Shown here in pieces: positions 33,114-39,743 of a stretch of DNA of 64,000 nucleotides. The translations under genes were made by a program, and so were the position numbers. The notes beneath the pieces were generated by a model. It saw only the letters and a list, made by a program, of their open reading frames with translations. It searched no databases and was not told where the DNA came from. The stretch covers positions 162,876 through 226,875 of the forward strand of contig MPMG01000005.1 of the NCBI GenBank assembly GCA_002238485.1, written 5' to 3'. The stretch comes from Chloroflexi bacterium bin20 (GTDB lineage Bacteria; Chloroflexota; Anaerolineae; Aggregatilineales; Phototrophicaceae). The number at the start of each line of letters is the position of its first letter. The stretch's first letter is position 1.

Positions 33114-34556
33114 ATGGCTGAACAAGCTGTAACTGCGCAGAGCGCAGACTTTTCGCGCTGGTACAACGAGATCGTCTATCGTGCTGATCTGGCTGCTCCA
33201 TCGCCGGTGCGCGGTTGTGTCATCATCAAGCCCTATGGCTATGAGATCTGGGAAGGCATCAAAGCCGGCCTGGACAGGCGCTTCAAAGCCACGGGCCATC
33301 AAAATGCGTACTTCCCGCTGTTCATCCCAGAAAGTTACATTCGCCGCGAAGCCCAGCATGTCGAAGGCTTCAGCCCCGAGCTGGCGGTGGTCACCCATGC
33401 TGGCGGCAAAGAACTGGAAGAGCCGCTGGTCGTGCGTCCCACTTCGGAGACTGTCATCGGCGAGGCTTTCAGCGACTGGATCCAGTCCTACCGCGACCTG
33501 CCGCTGTTGATCAACCAGTGGGCAAATGTCGTCCGCTGGGAGCTGCGCACGCGGCCCTTCCTGCGCACCGCCGAGTTCTTGTGGCAAGAAGGTCACACCG
33601 CGCATGCCACGCATGGCGAAGCCGAAGCAGAAACGCGCCAGATGCTGGATATCTATGCCGATTTCGCCATGGAAGATGCGGCGATACCGGTGATCAAAGG
33701 CGAAAAGAGCCGCATGGAGCGCTTTGCGGGCGCCTTGCGCACCTACACAATCGAAGCCATGATGCGCGACAAGCGAGCGCTGCAATCGGGCACCAGCCAC
33801 AATCTGGGGCAGAACTTCGCCAAAGCTTTCGACATCCACTACCTGTCCGAGAACAATGTGCAAGAGTATTGCTGGACGACCAGCTGGGGTCTGAGTACGC
33901 GCATGGTGGGCGCAGTCGTCATGACGCACGGCGATGACAAGGGCTTGCGACTGCCGCCCAAGTTGGCGCCCTATCAGGTAGTGATCGTGCCTATTATCCG
34001 CCGCGATGCCCAACGCAGCGCTGTCATGGAAACGGTCGAACGCCTGTGTGCCGAGCTGGTCGCCGCTGGCATTCGCGTGCATGTCGATCGGCGCGAGGGT
34101 CAATCGCCCGGCTTCAAGTTCAATGACTGGGAGATGCGCGGTGTGCCAGTGCGCATAGAGATCGGTCCCAAAGATGTTGAGAACGACAATGCGGTGCTTG
34201 CGCGGCGCGATGTGCCGGGCAGGGCGGGTAAGCAATTTGTGCCCCAAGCGGGTATAACAGATGTCGTGCGCGACCTGCTCGCCGATATTCAGCGCAGCTT
34301 GCTGGATGACGCTCGTGCCTTCCGCGACGCGCATATTGTCGATGTCGACGATTATGCCCAGCTCTGCGCTGCGGTCGAAGCGGGCGAGTGGGCGAGGGCA
34401 GCCTGGGCGGGCAGCGATGCCGATGAACAGCGAGTCAAGGACGAGACGGGCGCTACCATCCGCTGCTTTCCGTTTGATCAGCCGGAACGAGTGGGCAACT
34501 GTATCGTATCCGGGCACAGTGCCGACAAGGTGGCTTTGTTCGCCAAAGCCTATTGA
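33114..34556 (+). CDS. proS: prolyl-tRNA synthetase, short (type 3 / eukaryote-like)
   Basis: This 480-aa class II enzyme has class II motifs visible in GYEIWEGIKAGLD (motif 1 region), VVRPTSETVIG, RWELRTRPFLRTAEFLWQEGHTAH (motif 2) and TTSWGLSTRMVGAVVMTHGDDKG (motif 3). The length and the absence of the insertion editing domain between motifs 2 and 3 place it in the short, archaeal/eukaryote-like class found in several bacterial phyla. I start at the ATG at 33114, which has GGAAGGA upstream. Confidence 0.93.
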   Translation: MAEQAVTAQSADFSRWYNEIVYRADLAAPSPVRGCVIIKPYGYEIWEGIKAGLDRRFKATGHQNAYFPLFIPESYIRREAQHVEGFSPELAVVTHAGGKELEEPLVVRPTSETVIGEAFSDWIQSYRDLPLLINQWANVVRWELRTRPFLRTAEFLWQEGHTAHATHGEAEAETRQMLDIYADFAMEDAAIPVIKGEKSRMERFAGALRTYTIEAMMRDKRALQSGTSHNLGQNFAKAFDIHYLSENNVQEYCWTTSWGLSTRMVGAVVMTHGDDKGLRLPPKLAPYQVVIVPIIRRDAQRSAVMETVERLCAELVAAGIRVHVDRREGQSPGFKFNDWEMRGVPVRIEIGPKDVENDNAVLARRDVPGRAGKQFVPQAGITDVVRDLLADIQRSLLDDARAFRDAHIVDVDDYAQLCAAVEAGEWARAAWAGSDADEQRVKDETGATIRCFPFDQPERVGNCIVSGHSADKVALFAKAY

Positions 34557-34603: not shown

Positions 34604-34623
34604 ATTGTGAAAATTGACACAAT
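34604..34623. promoter_or_regulatory. inverted repeat overlapping the -35, possible operator
   Basis: ATTGTG, 8 bases, CACAAT: a perfect 6-bp inverted repeat that overlaps the TTGACA of the NYN promoter, where a repressor would act. No cognate regulator is identified. Confidence 0.35.
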
Positions 34624-34642
34624 CGAACTATTGCTGTAGACT
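34614..34642 (+). promoter_or_regulatory. strong promoter of the NYN gene
   Basis: TTGACA, a 17-base spacer and TAGACT. The leader to the start codon is about 160 bases and holds no gene I can see. Confidence 0.65.
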
Positions 34643-34807
34643 GCTAATTGGCGTACGGGAAAGCAACCCAGATTCTTATTACGATGAGATGATTTTCTAT
34701 CGCAGCACTTATCGCAAATTGAACTCTCGCCCTGCCACATGGACACAGCGGGTTTGATGTCGGTGTTTCATTAGGGCATGACGGGTTCGTGATTCTTGGA
34801 AATGAAG

Positions 34808-36958
34808 ATGAAAGCTTACTTGCTCGTAGATGTAGACGATTTGCTGAATCACGCCGCCAATAGCAAAGTCGACTTGCAGGAATTGGCGGTGGCTATCCGC
34901 GCCAACGCCATCATGGTGGCTGGCTTGATTGAATCGACCCTTTTGCGGGCGATCGCCTTTGCCAGCTGGAGCGCAGAAAACGCCAGCTTGCCCAAAGAAA
35001 CGCTAGCCATTTTTCAGAATGCTGGCTACGAAACGTTTGATATCAACGATCCGGCGCGCGCCAACGAATGTCTGCAAGCAGAGTTCTTCCCGCCCGAGCA
35101 CAGTCCGCTGAGCTGGCTCATCATGGCGACAACGCGCAAAGACTTGCTGGAGCTGCTGCCAAAGATCGAGTTCTCAGCCAATTCGCGCATTCGGCTGTGG
35201 GGAATCGACGAAGCTGCGCTGGACATCGGTCCTCTGAGCGATCGCACTGTCGTTCAGGGCTTTGACTCGCTGGTTGGCATCCAGAAGATCAAGAATGTCG
35301 CGGTTTACATCGACTTTGAGAATATCTCGATCAGCCTCAACGAGCAGGGCTATGTTGTCAACCTGGATCATCTTATCGACCGGATGGCCTCCCAAGCCCA
35401 GGCGCACGGACAGCTAGTCAAGACAGCGGCTTATGCGCCCTGGGGTCAGCGCGGGGCATTGCCGCCCCTGGTCGACAGCGGTGGCCGCGAAGTGGCGGAT
35501 GATGCCCCGGCGCGCCTGATGAAGTCAAATATCGACCCCGTCTTTCACCTGCCCGGCAAGCAAAGCGCCGATATCCGCATCGCCCGCGATGTCTTGGCAG
35601 ATGCCGATTATCCCGAATCGGGCGATGTCATCATCTTGGCGACTGGCGACCGCGATTTCAACGATGTCATCAACACACTGCTGCAAAAGCGCAAGACTGT
35701 GGTCGTCTGGGGCGTGCGTGGCAGCACCGGTCGCTTGTTGCAAGACCATCCCTCGCTGCGACTGGATTATATCGATGACTTCACCGATCTGCGCACCCAT
35801 CAGTCGCTCAGCGTTGTCGAGACCGAACACGACACCGAAAGCTTCATCCCTTCGCAGTGGTCCAGCGTCATCATCCAATTCTTCCGCTTGAGCGCCGCCA
35901 ATCCACAAGAGATCATCACGGTCGACGATCTCATCGCGCAGCTCAACGATGTCGGCGGCGTCATTTCGCGAGAACGCGGGCAAGATCTGGTTTCGCAAGC
36001 CTTGTCTCTGGGCATATTGGCAGAGCAAGAGGGTCCCGGCGCCATTCGCTTGAACTTTCAACATCCTATCGTCGACAAGACTCTGCTGATCGTCAATCGG
36101 CTGGTACGCCGTGTCGCCAATACGCTGTCCACGCGCAGTTGGGAATATGTCAACTATGGCTTCTTGCTCAAGGGCATCGCCATGGAGCGCGACCTCAGCC
36201 GCACGGGCATGAACGACAGCGACCAATGGCGCTCGCACTGGATCGACTGCCTGGTGCGCGAACGCGTCTTGCAGCGCGACCTCGTGCCGCATCGCCACAA
36301 TCCGGACGACCTCGTGCCCGTCATCCGCCTGCCCGAAACCCGCGATGCGCTCACCTTGTCGCAGCCAGAGACCGAACCGGTAAGTATCGACATCAGCGCG
36401 CAGAAGTGGAAAGGCGTGCCGCCACACCAGATGGTTGAGATCGACAGCGATGTCGCGCGCATGGTCGCCCGCATTGTGATAAGCGTCCAGCAATTCACCA
36501 GCTTCCGCAACTTCGCCTGGTGTCCACTGGGCAGCCTGCACAGACGTCTGCGCGAACACGATGGCGGCATGGCATTCCAAAACGCGGTCGAATACCTGCT
36601 GGTCAACGAAATGGTCAGCGTCAACGAATACGCCAATCCGCGCAGCGACTACAACACCAAGGGCATCGAGCTGAACGAGAGCAACTCTTTTGTGGCGGCG
36701 CTGCTGGCGGAGCGAGACGAATTCGTGCGCGTGCTGCTGGCAATGTATCGAAACAACGACGGCATCACACAAGAGACGATCGCGCTGCAGCTCAACAGCA
36801 ATTGGGATGTCGGACTGTGGCTGTCCATTATGCGCAGCGAGAATGTGCTCAACCCGCTGCCGGGCAGAACCGACCAATTCAGCTTGTTCCGCACGCATCA
36901 TACGGTGAAGCTGGTCGCCAACGACGATGTCGACGAGATGCAGGAAGTCGCCAGCTAG
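34808..36958 (+). CDS. tandem NYN-domain protein with helical C-terminal region
   Basis: This 716-aa protein contains a NYN (PIN-like RNase) domain at about 165-345. VAVYIDFENISI, SADIRIARDV and IILATGDRDFNDVI supply the acidic catalytic residues, and TVVVWGVRGS the closing strand. The first 150 residues look like a second, degenerate copy: AYLLVDVDDLL aligns with the first strand, and WLIMATTRKDLLELL with the central motif, but the acidic residues are mostly lost. Residues 350-716 are likely several winged-helix or LOTUS-like units (repeats of VDDLIAQLNDVGG type). NYN proteins cleave RNA in decay or surveillance. ATG at 34808 is favoured by GGA 7 bases before; 34802 is an alternative. It is upstream of rpsO-pnp. 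Confidence 0.75.
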   Translation: MKAYLLVDVDDLLNHAANSKVDLQELAVAIRANAIMVAGLIESTLLRAIAFASWSAENASLPKETLAIFQNAGYETFDINDPARANECLQAEFFPPEHSPLSWLIMATTRKDLLELLPKIEFSANSRIRLWGIDEAALDIGPLSDRTVVQGFDSLVGIQKIKNVAVYIDFENISISLNEQGYVVNLDHLIDRMASQAQAHGQLVKTAAYAPWGQRGALPPLVDSGGREVADDAPARLMKSNIDPVFHLPGKQSADIRIARDVLADADYPESGDVIILATGDRDFNDVINTLLQKRKTVVVWGVRGSTGRLLQDHPSLRLDYIDDFTDLRTHQSLSVVETEHDTESFIPSQWSSVIIQFFRLSAANPQEIITVDDLIAQLNDVGGVISRERGQDLVSQALSLGILAEQEGPGAIRLNFQHPIVDKTLLIVNRLVRRVANTLSTRSWEYVNYGFLLKGIAMERDLSRTGMNDSDQWRSHWIDCLVRERVLQRDLVPHRHNPDDLVPVIRLPETRDALTLSQPETEPVSIDISAQKWKGVPPHQMVEIDSDVARMVARIVISVQQFTSFRNFAWCPLGSLHRRLREHDGGMAFQNAVEYLLVNEMVSVNEYANPRSDYNTKGIELNESNSFVAALLAERDEFVRVLLAMYRNNDGITQETIALQLNSNWDVGLWLSIMRSENVLNPLPGRTDQFSLFRTHHTVKLVANDDVDEMQEVAS

Positions 36959-36965
36959 CTGGCAC

Positions 36966-36994
36966 TTGTCGCCCCTTGGTGCGACTGCTACAAT
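36966..36994 (+). promoter_or_regulatory. promoter of rpsO
   Basis: TTGTCG, a 17-base spacer and TACAAT, immediately after the NYN gene and 70 bases before the rpsO start. Confidence 0.55.
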
Positions 36995-37014
36995 CGCCGC
37001 GTTTATCTTGACCA

Positions 37015-37036
37015 ACAGGCAACCGCTCCTGCCTGT
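37015..37036 (+). promoter_or_regulatory. rpsO leader hairpin
   Basis: ACAGGCA and TGCCTGT pair perfectly around an 8-base loop, in the transcribed leader about 27 bases before the rpsO ATG. S15 often controls its own mRNA through leader structures, so this is a plausible S15 site. Confidence 0.4.
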
Positions 37037-37063
37037 CTGGTGGCTAGCGAAGGGACGGAAAGC

Positions 37064-37333
37064 ATGCCATTGGATAAAGTAACAAAGACGCAGATCATCA
37101 AAGACTATGCCCGCGAAGACGGCGACACCGGCTCGCCCGAGGTGCAGATCGCACTGCTCACCCAGCGAATCCTGCAGTTGACTGAGCACCTGAAGATTCA
37201 CAACCACGACGAACATTCGCGGCGCGGCTTGCTGAAGCTGGTCGGACAACGCCGCCGCCACCTGAAGTACATCGCACGCAAAAAGCCGGAAGTCTATCGG
37301 GAGTTGCTGGCGCGGCTAGGCTTGCGCCGCTGA
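37064..37333 (+). CDS. rpsO: 30S ribosomal protein S15
   Basis: This 89-aa primary binder of 16S rRNA in the small subunit has the hallmark [12 protein letters not shown] and [24 protein letters not shown] segments. The start ATG at 37064 has AAGGGACGG upstream. It is followed by pnp, the common rpsO-pnp order, with 139 bases between. Confidence 0.97.
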
Positions 37334-37472: not shown

Positions 37473-39743
37473 ATGACACTGGATATACGCGAATACCGCT
37501 GCAATGTTGGCGGCAAGGAAGTCATCATCGAAACCGGACGCTTTGCCCAGCAGGCCGGCGGCGCAGTGACTGTACGCATGGGCGATACCATGCTTTTCTG
37601 CTCGACGACCATGGGCTCGCCGCGCCCTGGGCTGGATTTCTTCCCGCTCAGCGTCGATTACGAAGAAAAGATGTACGCTGGCGGACGCGTGCCGGGCGGG
37701 TTCTTCCGCCGCGAAGGCCGACCGTCCGAAGGCGCGATCCTCACCTCGCGCGTCATCGACCGCACGCTGCGCCCGCTCTTCCCCAAGAACATGCGCAACG
37801 AAGTGCAAGTCATTTTGATGTCGCTTTCTCATGATAAAGAGCATCATGTCGATATGCTGGGCATCATTGCCGCCAGCACGGCGCTGATGATCTCCGATAT
37901 CCCCTGGAATGGTCCGGTTGCTGGCGCGCGCGTCGGTCTGGTCGATGGCGAGTTGGCTGTCAACCCAACTTACAGCGATATGGCCGACAGCGCGCTCGAC
38001 CTGCGTGTCTCTGGCACAGCCGAAGCCATCAACATGGTGGAGTGCAACGCCGACCAGGTCGACGAAGACACCATGCTGGAAGCGCTATTCCTGGCGCACG
38101 ACTCGGTGCAAGACATTATCGCCCTGCAACAGCGCATCCGCGGCGAGATCGGCAAAGACAAAAACGCCCCTTCCGTAGACGACATCAGCGAAGCGCTGCA
38201 AGCCGAAGTCGCCGCCAAGGTCGAAGCGCCGATACGCGAAGTTATGTCTGCGCACAGCGACCGCGCCGCCCGCCGCCAACCCCTGCGCGATATCCAGGAT
38301 GGGCTGTTGGCGGAATACGGCGCTCGCCAGGAAGCCGGCGACAGCTCAATCAACCTGAAGCATGTCGAACGCGCCTATGACACGGTGATGAAACAGGTCG
38401 TGCGTGAGCGCATCGTCAATGAAGGCATCCGCCCCGATGGCCGAGATCCCGCCAGCATCCGTGCGCTGGCTGCCGAAGTCGGGCTGGTGCCGCGAGTTCA
38501 CGGCTCGGGCATGTTCATGCGCGGCGAAACACAGGTCTTGACCATCGCTACGCTGGGCACTCCGCGTGACTCGCAATTCCTCGATGGCTTAAGCCCCGAA
38601 GACGACAAGCGCTATATGCACCATTACAATTTCCCGCCCTACAGCACAGGCGAAACCTATCCCATGCGCGGTCCGCGTCGCCGCGAAGTCGGTCATGGCG
38701 CGTTGGCGGAGAAAGCCCTGCTGGCCATGATCCCGCCTGCCGAAGAGTTCCCCTATGTCCTGCGCCTCGTCAGCGAGGTGATGAGCTCGAACGGCAGCAC
38801 GTCTATGGCGAGCGTCTGCGGGAGTACGTTGGCGCTGCTGGATGCGGGCGTGCCCATCAAAAATCCGGTCGGCGGCATCGCCATGGGCTTGATCAAAGAA
38901 GGCGACAAGCTCGCTGTATTGACCGACATCCAGGGCTTGGAAGATCATCTTGGCGATATGGACTTCAAGGTCGCGGGCACGGCGGATGGCATCACAGCGC
39001 TGCAAATGGATATCAAGATCGCCGGTGTAACGCGCGACATCATGGGGCAGGCGCTGGCGCAAGCCAAAGATGCCCGCCTGGAAATCCTCGCTGTCATCCA
39101 GGCCGCCATGCCACAGAAGCGCGCCAAGCTCAGCGACTTCGCCCCGCGCATGGAGAGCTTCAAAATTGCCGTCGACAAGATCGGCGCAGTCATTGGTCCT
39201 GGCGGCAAGAATGTGCGCGGGCTGCAAGACGAGCATCAAGTCAAGGTCGATATTCAAGAAGACGGCTTGATCTATGTGGCCGGCGATTCTGGCGCAGAAG
39301 TCGATCGCGCGATCGAGAAAATCAAAGCCATGGTGCAGGAACCTGAGCTGGGTCATATCTACACCGGCAAGGTGGTACGCACCGAAAATTACGGCGCTTT
39401 TGTGGAATTCCTGCCCGGCTCGGAAGGCATGGTGCATGTCTCGCAGCTGGCGGATTACCATGTCAAAAGCGTCGAAGACGAAGTCAGCGTGGGCGACGAA
39501 ATCATGGTCATGGTCATCAATATCGATGGCACGGGCAGAGTGCGCCTCAGCCGCCAAGCCGTCTTGGAAGGCTGGGATGTCGAAGAAGCCAAACGCCGCG
39601 ATGCCGCTGGTTCGCGCGGGGGCGGACGCCGCGGGGGTGGTGACCGCCGCGGACCACGCCGTGATGGCAACCGTGGTGGTGGCGACCGCCGTGGGCCGCG
39701 CCGCGATGGCAATCGGAGCGGTGGCGACCGCAACCGCAGCTAA
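37473..39743 (+). CDS. pnp: polyribonucleotide nucleotidyltransferase
   Basis: This 756-aa phosphorolytic 3'-to-5' exoribonuclease of mRNA decay has two RNase PH-like domains (about 10-225 and 315-540), the second with GGIAMGLI and the DIQGLEDHLGDMDFKVAGT active region. A KH domain (IGAVIGPGGKNVR near 570) and an S1 domain (GKVVRTENYGAFVEFLPG near 633) follow. The C-terminus is an Arg/Gly-rich tail with two 14-residue repeats. I start at 37473 because GGAG lies 6 bases before it; the 37461 ATG in the track has no ribosome site. Confidence 0.95.
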   Translation: MTLDIREYRCNVGGKEVIIETGRFAQQAGGAVTVRMGDTMLFCSTTMGSPRPGLDFFPLSVDYEEKMYAGGRVPGGFFRREGRPSEGAILTSRVIDRTLRPLFPKNMRNEVQVILMSLSHDKEHHVDMLGIIAASTALMISDIPWNGPVAGARVGLVDGELAVNPTYSDMADSALDLRVSGTAEAINMVECNADQVDEDTMLEALFLAHDSVQDIIALQQRIRGEIGKDKNAPSVDDISEALQAEVAAKVEAPIREVMSAHSDRAARRQPLRDIQDGLLAEYGARQEAGDSSINLKHVERAYDTVMKQVVRERIVNEGIRPDGRDPASIRALAAEVGLVPRVHGSGMFMRGETQVLTIATLGTPRDSQFLDGLSPEDDKRYMHHYNFPPYSTGETYPMRGPRRREVGHGALAEKALLAMIPPAEEFPYVLRLVSEVMSSNGSTSMASVCGSTLALLDAGVPIKNPVGGIAMGLIKEGDKLAVLTDIQGLEDHLGDMDFKVAGTADGITALQMDIKIAGVTRDIMGQALAQAKDARLEILAVIQAAMPQKRAKLSDFAPRMESFKIAVDKIGAVIGPGGKNVRGLQDEHQVKVDIQEDGLIYVAGDSGAEVDRAIEKIKAMVQEPELGHIYTGKVVRTENYGAFVEFLPGSEGMVHVSQLADYHVKSVEDEVSVGDEIMVMVINIDGTGRVRLSRQAVLEGWDVEEAKRRDAAGSRGGGRRGGGDRRGPRRDGNRGGGDRRGPRRDGNRSGGDRNRS
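39633..39740 (+). repeat. 42-bp tandem repeats in the pnp tail
   Basis: Two full 42-bp units (39633-39674 and 39675-39716) and a partial third encode GGGDRRGPRRDGNR repeats. They differ only by a few bases. Confidence 0.8.

Follow-up and report, generated by a model that had tools for sequence, protein, structure and literature searches.

Between proS and the rpsO-pnp pair, Chloroflexi bacterium bin20 carries a gene whose product joins a degenerate NYN-like domain, an intact NYN nuclease domain and a tail of four winged helices. On balance, though with no great confidence, we favour the view that this protein, chromosomally encoded and inherited vertically, is an endoribonuclease that acts on single-stranded RNA in normal metabolism; the NYN domain would cut, the degenerate domain (pseudo-NYN) would grip, the winged helices would select and polynucleotide phosphorylase (PNPase) would trim. 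Throughout, "the window" denotes the whole stretch of 64,000 nucleotides that was analysed.

A first-pass annotation of the window gave the span 34604-36958. The open reading frame is real and does end at 36958, but position 34604 belongs to the promoter and the gene itself starts at 34808. Although the long open reading frame has an alternative start, the TTG at 34796, the ATG at 34808 was chosen because the orthologues begin MAAYLIVDVDDL; this gives a protein of 716 aa, and residues are counted from this ATG. A MazG-like gene and proS lie upstream, and rpsO and pnp lie downstream, as identified with Pfam:

33114..34556, + strand: proS (prolyl-tRNA synthetase), conserved upstream neighbour (Pfam)
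34808..36958, + strand: NYN gene, encoding the pseudo-NYN / NYN / four-winged-helix protein (716 aa; start set from orthologues)
36966..36994, + strand: promoter of rpsO-pnp's own, TTGTCG-N17-TACAAT, just after the NYN stop
37064..37333, + strand: rpsO (ribosomal protein S15), conserved downstream neighbour (Pfam)
37473..39743, + strand: pnp (polynucleotide phosphorylase) (Pfam)

The gene is under strong purifying selection: the NYN domain has a dN/dS of 0.01-0.03, the C-terminus one of 0.12-0.14 and the N-terminal domain (N-domain) one of 0.15-0.26.

Two NYN-like domains and a winged-helix tail

The protein is divided as follows:

34808..35281, + strand: N-terminal degenerate NYN-like domain, residues 1-158 (model, Foldseek, profile matches)
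35285..35797, + strand: catalytic NYN/LK-nuclease domain, residues 160-330 (PF01936, Foldseek, invariant acids)
35855..36052, + strand: winged helix W1, residues 350-415 (AF2 secondary structure H-H-H-E-E)
36065..36328, + strand: winged helix W2, residues 420-507 (AF2 model)
36446..36673, + strand: winged helix W3, residues 547-622 (AF2 model, alignment)
36686..36886, + strand: winged helix W4, residues 627-693 (AF2 model, alignment)

Residues 160-330 match PF01936 (NYN) with an E-value of 4e-17 and 63.5 bits, against a cut-off of 24.2. The same family is matched by all 54 members of the orthologue set, and this domain is the sole NYN match in the window's genome. Nine residues (D169, E171, N172, K251, D255, D281, R282, D283 and F284) are unchanged across the 54 orthologues. 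By motif and spacing, D169, D255 and D281 are the equivalents of the reported NYN Asp trio, which is D13/D118/D143 in the B. fragilis NYN protein and D358/D426/D452 in MARF1 and which clusters in the active sites of both and of VPA0982 (PMC11346440). A sequence search against solved structures yielded nothing useful for the protein. Foldseek with the full model places VPA0982 (PDB 2qip) first and the MARF1 NYN domain second (TMt 0.76 to 2qip and 0.79 to 5yaa), with MARF1 6fdl also matched. NYN enzymes that have been assayed cut single-stranded RNA with Mn2+ (PMC11346440), and MARF1 degrades mRNA (PMC6294520). Judged by its residues, the middle domain is apparently a complete, active-looking nuclease.

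The first-pass annotation had proposed two NYN-like folds, a claim that was to fall if a fold search showed the N-terminal part to be unrelated to NYN. When residues 1-160 are modelled alone (pLDDT 89, pTM 0.87), Foldseek finds the MARF1 NYN domain (TM 0.62/0.65, prob 1.00) and also VPA0982. Rossmann-type dehydrogenases are among the matches too, with similar E-values but lower TM; here the sequence evidence favours NYN as the fold. In an 18-protein set, a profile of the N-domain picks up NYN domains from other Chloroflexota proteins with a best E of 1.2e-6, compared with a best E of 3.3e-4 for 40 column-shuffled control profiles. Within the protein itself, hhalign gives a collinear alignment of the N-domain to the NYN domain (P 0.0014). 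Together with the PF01936 match, these results bear out the pair of folds. The further suggestion that the first of them is without the acidic site holds only in part. D8, equivalent to D169, is kept in 52/52 sequences and D112, equivalent to D283, in 50/54, whereas the first Asp of GDxDF is lost, being R110 here and mostly S, N or G in the other orthologues. The position of D87 is an Asp in 42/54 and a Glu in the window's protein; it aligns near D255/D261, and its exact equivalence is ambiguous. The complete catalytic Asp trio is absent from the N-domain in the alignment of 54 orthologues. Since the lost first Asp of GDxDF belongs to that trio, the N-domain is probably an inactive pseudo-nuclease.

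The helical tail had been described as possibly winged-helix or LOTUS-like, and the first of these descriptions stands. In the AF2 model of the full protein (pLDDT 83, pTM 0.53), residues 350-693 form four units, each of three helices and two strands, although how the units are arranged is uncertain because the pTM is low. W2 is the best conserved of them, with 35 of 90 columns invariant over residues 419-508. A LOTUS identity is rejected by sequence: OST-HTH (PF12872) finds no match at E <= 1 in the 54 members, whereas it does match other Chloroflexota NYN proteins (L108, E 2e-7; L126, E 0.001). An origin of the four winged helices by repeat duplication was likewise dropped, as the units share no pairwise profile similarity. 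Net charges are -4 for W1, +3 for W2, -2 for W3 and -2 for W4. Instead of RNA, the ligand of the four units might be DNA or protein. As a separate observation, L108 and L109, from one Caldilineaceae genome and another similar to it, encode NYN proteins of about 660-720 aa; OST-HTH was found in L108, and the proteins have roughly 400 further C-terminal residues that match nothing in Pfam.

Descent and chromosomal neighbours

A full-length orthologue is present in 53/61 related genomes (the window's genome counted), which make up an order-level clade of Anaerolineae, and each genome has one copy, save for one gene that is split over contigs. Orthologues occur at about 75 places in a GTDB-based collection, nearly all of them in Chloroflexota. 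Among 301 genomes sampled across the phylum, the NYN domain alone is matched outside the orthologue group. Distances between the NYN proteins track those of PNPase (Mantel r 0.89) and prolyl-tRNA synthetase (ProRS; r 0.88), with a permutation maximum of 0.24; thus, the gene has descended vertically. A search for phage or plasmid relatives of the protein found none. One record titled Pleurocapsa minor, a cyanobacterium, holds the NYN gene with proS adjoining (L104); it is probably contaminated or mislabelled, and L062 and L074 are similar cases.

Another Chloroflexota class (that of G301) contains a family of cousins (L148-L152) that are about 24% identical to the NYN protein and have GDGGY, with the second Asp of GDxDF replaced, where the window's protein has GDRDF. 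They have the NYN domain and the whole tail in common with it, the tail again being roughly 400 residues after NYN; tail against tail, hhalign gives a P of 5e-12 compared with 0.012 for a reversed control, and tblastn aligns the tail as well. In four of the five (L148-L151) an XRE-type helix-turn-helix (HTH) replaces the pseudo-NYN domain, and the fifth, L152, has no N-terminal module. Because four cousins carry an XRE HTH in its place, the pseudo-NYN domain is a lineage-specific module on a common chassis of NYN and winged helices. The short flanks of the cousin loci contain no match to rpsO, pnp or proS.

Within the orthologue group, the neighbourhood is well conserved. The most constant neighbour is proS, which lies directly upstream of the NYN gene in 61/67 testable loci, and rpsO lies <=400 bp downstream in 56/72. 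The order proS-NYN-rpsO-pnp is complete in 48/62 loci, in agreement with the first observation that the NYN gene precedes rpsO-pnp. At five loci (L066, L078, L085, L102 and L104) rpsO-pnp is not adjacent, yet proS is still beside the NYN gene. Conversely, families f2, f5 and f6 of the order have rpsO-pnp without the NYN gene; consequently, PNPase does not need the NYN protein. In one genome of these NYN-less families, proS is found divergent beside rpsO.

A simple operon of the NYN gene and pnp is unsupported, given the separate promoters for the NYN gene and rpsO-pnp. Of 17 orthologous loci that were examined, most have an equivalent rpsO promoter. The NYN gene and rpsO-pnp are thus strongly linked, though not demonstrably co-transcribed. 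Between this promoter and the rpsO ATG, the rpsO leader (37011-37063) has a hairpin, ACAGGC...GCCTGT, followed by GGTGGC; it recurs in related loci and looks like an S15 autoregulatory leader. An Rfam search of the window, the rpsO leader included, found no known RNA family.

The same neighbours can be read differently. If the link to proS and rpsO, and not that to pnp, is the meaningful one, then the protein could be a ribosome- or translation-linked endonuclease like Rae1/YacP, cutting mRNA on stalled ribosomes or maturing rRNA or tRNA. This is the main rival of the RNA-turnover reading, possible though on the unlikely side. It draws on the rank of proS and rpsO as first and second most constant neighbours and on YacP/Rae1 itself, a bacterial NYN-fold RNase that associates with the ribosome. 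However, the adjacency of proS and rpsO may be passive, both being housekeeping genes with high expression; no ribosome-binding domain is recognised in the NYN protein, and the protein is of the PF01936 type, with no YacP-family match seen.

An RNA surveillance or defence role had also been suggested at the outset. A part in surveillance or decay agrees with how the domains are ordered and with the conserved synteny. Defence does not: an anti-phage or toxin-like RNase is very improbable, and a defence gene is rejected on descent, neighbours and the absence of mobile homologues. Some NYN RNases do belong to type III CRISPR systems (PMC11346440), and the PADLOC "NYN" model gives a weak match to the protein, which spans 57 residues and scores 14.6 bits (E 0.0039). 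Against this, the gene is a single-copy core gene of its order, its neighbours are housekeeping genes, no defence partner is recognised beside it, and PADLOC gives no confident model match with system partners. Because the conserved gene usually adjoins pnp, an RNA-turnover factor is more likely than a phage-defence gene. RNase Y and RNase J are both encoded in the window's genome, which gave no match for RNase E/G; thus, alongside RNase Y, RNase J and the adjacent PNPase, the NYN enzyme would add to a standard decay set.

Promoter, leader hairpin and proposed mechanism

Two elements precede the NYN gene in the window:

34604..34623, no strand: inverted repeat ATTGTG-N8-CACAAT that covers the -35, a candidate repressor site (exact-copy search)
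34614..34642, + strand: sigma-70-type promoter of the NYN gene, TTGACA-N17-TAGACT (10/12 consensus bases)

Thus, the strong promoter with an inverted repeat at the -35 that was originally noticed is indeed there. Similar promoter elements are found upstream of L032-L035 and L054, where the inverted repeat also recurs. The sequence at 34604-34623, ATTGTGAAAATTGACACAAT, resembles the palindromes of the CRP/FNR type (TGTGA-N6-ACACA), and by this analogy its overlap with the -35 suggests repression by a CRP/FNR-type protein. A wider regulon was sought and discarded, as a search of the genome for exact copies of the repeat found this one alone. A small open reading frame in the NYN leader was dropped by eye, since frameshifts and in-frame stops occur in the leaders of relatives.

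Most orthologues have a leader hairpin whose end lies some 20-24 bases from the ATG and is directly followed by a U-run and AGGA. Many families have the stem ACCACC/GGTGGT, and others have GCCACC/GGTGGC, GCCAGC/GCTGGT or GCCGGC/GCCGGC; one pair of columns is A-U in 24 leaders, G-C in 8 and G-U in 7. For 71 leaders the mean folding z is -1.2, and 20 of them fall below -2. RNAalifold support is weak because the loops vary in length, with three pairs of which one has 8 double changes; the hairpin consequently rests mainly on the folding z-scores and the stem sequences. The exact motif (ACCACC..GGTGGT with UUUU(U)AGG) occurs in 4 of the 6 genomes searched, once in each and just upstream of the NYN gene (L061, L069, L072 and L085). 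The window's own subclade shows no evident hairpin of this kind (z -0.1). Where it is present, it suggests gene-specific control, possibly by the NYN enzyme itself.

In another explanation, the protein is a DNA- or RNA-binding regulator with few targets, for example its own gene; the winged helices, and the XRE domain of the cousins, would read DNA, and the nuclease would act on the nascent transcript. The four winged helices of the tail, the XRE-type HTH in place of pseudo-NYN among the cousins, and the inverted repeat, which has no second exact copy in the genome and covers the gene's own -35, are all in keeping with it. We consider it improbable, however. A pure DNA binder would have no use for a full acidic site, yet here that site is invariant; none of the domains carries the kind of net positive charge that marks DNA binders; and the inverted repeat is confined to the window's subclade and L054.

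In the RNA-turnover reading, by contrast, the middle NYN domain would make metal-dependent internal cuts in RNA. The pseudo-NYN domain, without an essential Asp, would act as a structural or RNA-gripping partner, perhaps replacing the second subunit of a nuclease dimer, and the four winged helices would choose the substrate RNA. The new 3' ends would then be cleared by exonucleases, most plausibly the PNPase encoded next door, a partnership that is plausible but unproven. In many orthologues, control could be exerted through the hairpin beside the gene's own Shine-Dalgarno sequence; this would fit autoregulation by cleavage or binding, and both RNase E and PNPase are known to autoregulate. A more specific version seems to us rather doubtful: that the protein is an order-specific initiator of decay, combining NYN, a pseudo-nuclease in cis and a four-winged-helix RNA reader, which feeds PNPase, limits itself via the Shine-Dalgarno hairpin and works in parallel to RNase Y where RNase E is absent.

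Comparison with known NYN proteins

No description of the architecture pseudo-NYN / NYN / four winged helices was found in the open-access literature, subscription journals lying outside the scope of the search. With its pairing of a broken and an intact nuclease, the protein is a naturally occurring example of a pseudo-enzyme retained in cis as a partner. YacP/Rae1 of B. subtilis is comparable in being a bacterial NYN-fold endoribonuclease of normal mRNA metabolism; YacP/Rae1, however, belongs to a different Pfam family and is a small protein without a winged-helix array. VPA0982 (PDB 2qip) and the CRISPR-associated B. fragilis NYN protein consist of a single NYN fold with the same Asp trio. 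As described, neither has a pseudo-NYN domain or a winged-helix array, and the B. fragilis enzyme is linked to CRISPR.

MARF1, an mRNA-decay enzyme of animals, is related to the bacterial NYN/LK nucleases that carry winged-helix tails. The LK-nuclease of the paper on OST-HTH is the NYN domain, PF01936 (PMC2848206). Proteins that join it to OST-HTH, such as Limkain b1/MARF1, share both the nuclease family and the order of the window's protein, a nuclease followed by winged-helix readers (PMC2848206, PMC6294520). Unlike them, the window's protein has no OST-HTH match in any of its 54 members and has an extra N-terminal pseudo-NYN domain. A survey in 2010 reported no conserved linkage of bacterial LK + OST-HTH genes to known RNA-processing genes (PMC2848206), whereas the NYN gene of the window is linked to pnp. 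Relative to that statement the pnp linkage is new, though for a different branch. A distinct NYN branch that is core and single-copy and, in several families, keeps its link to proS and rpsO-pnp suggests a concrete candidate for the substrate pathway.
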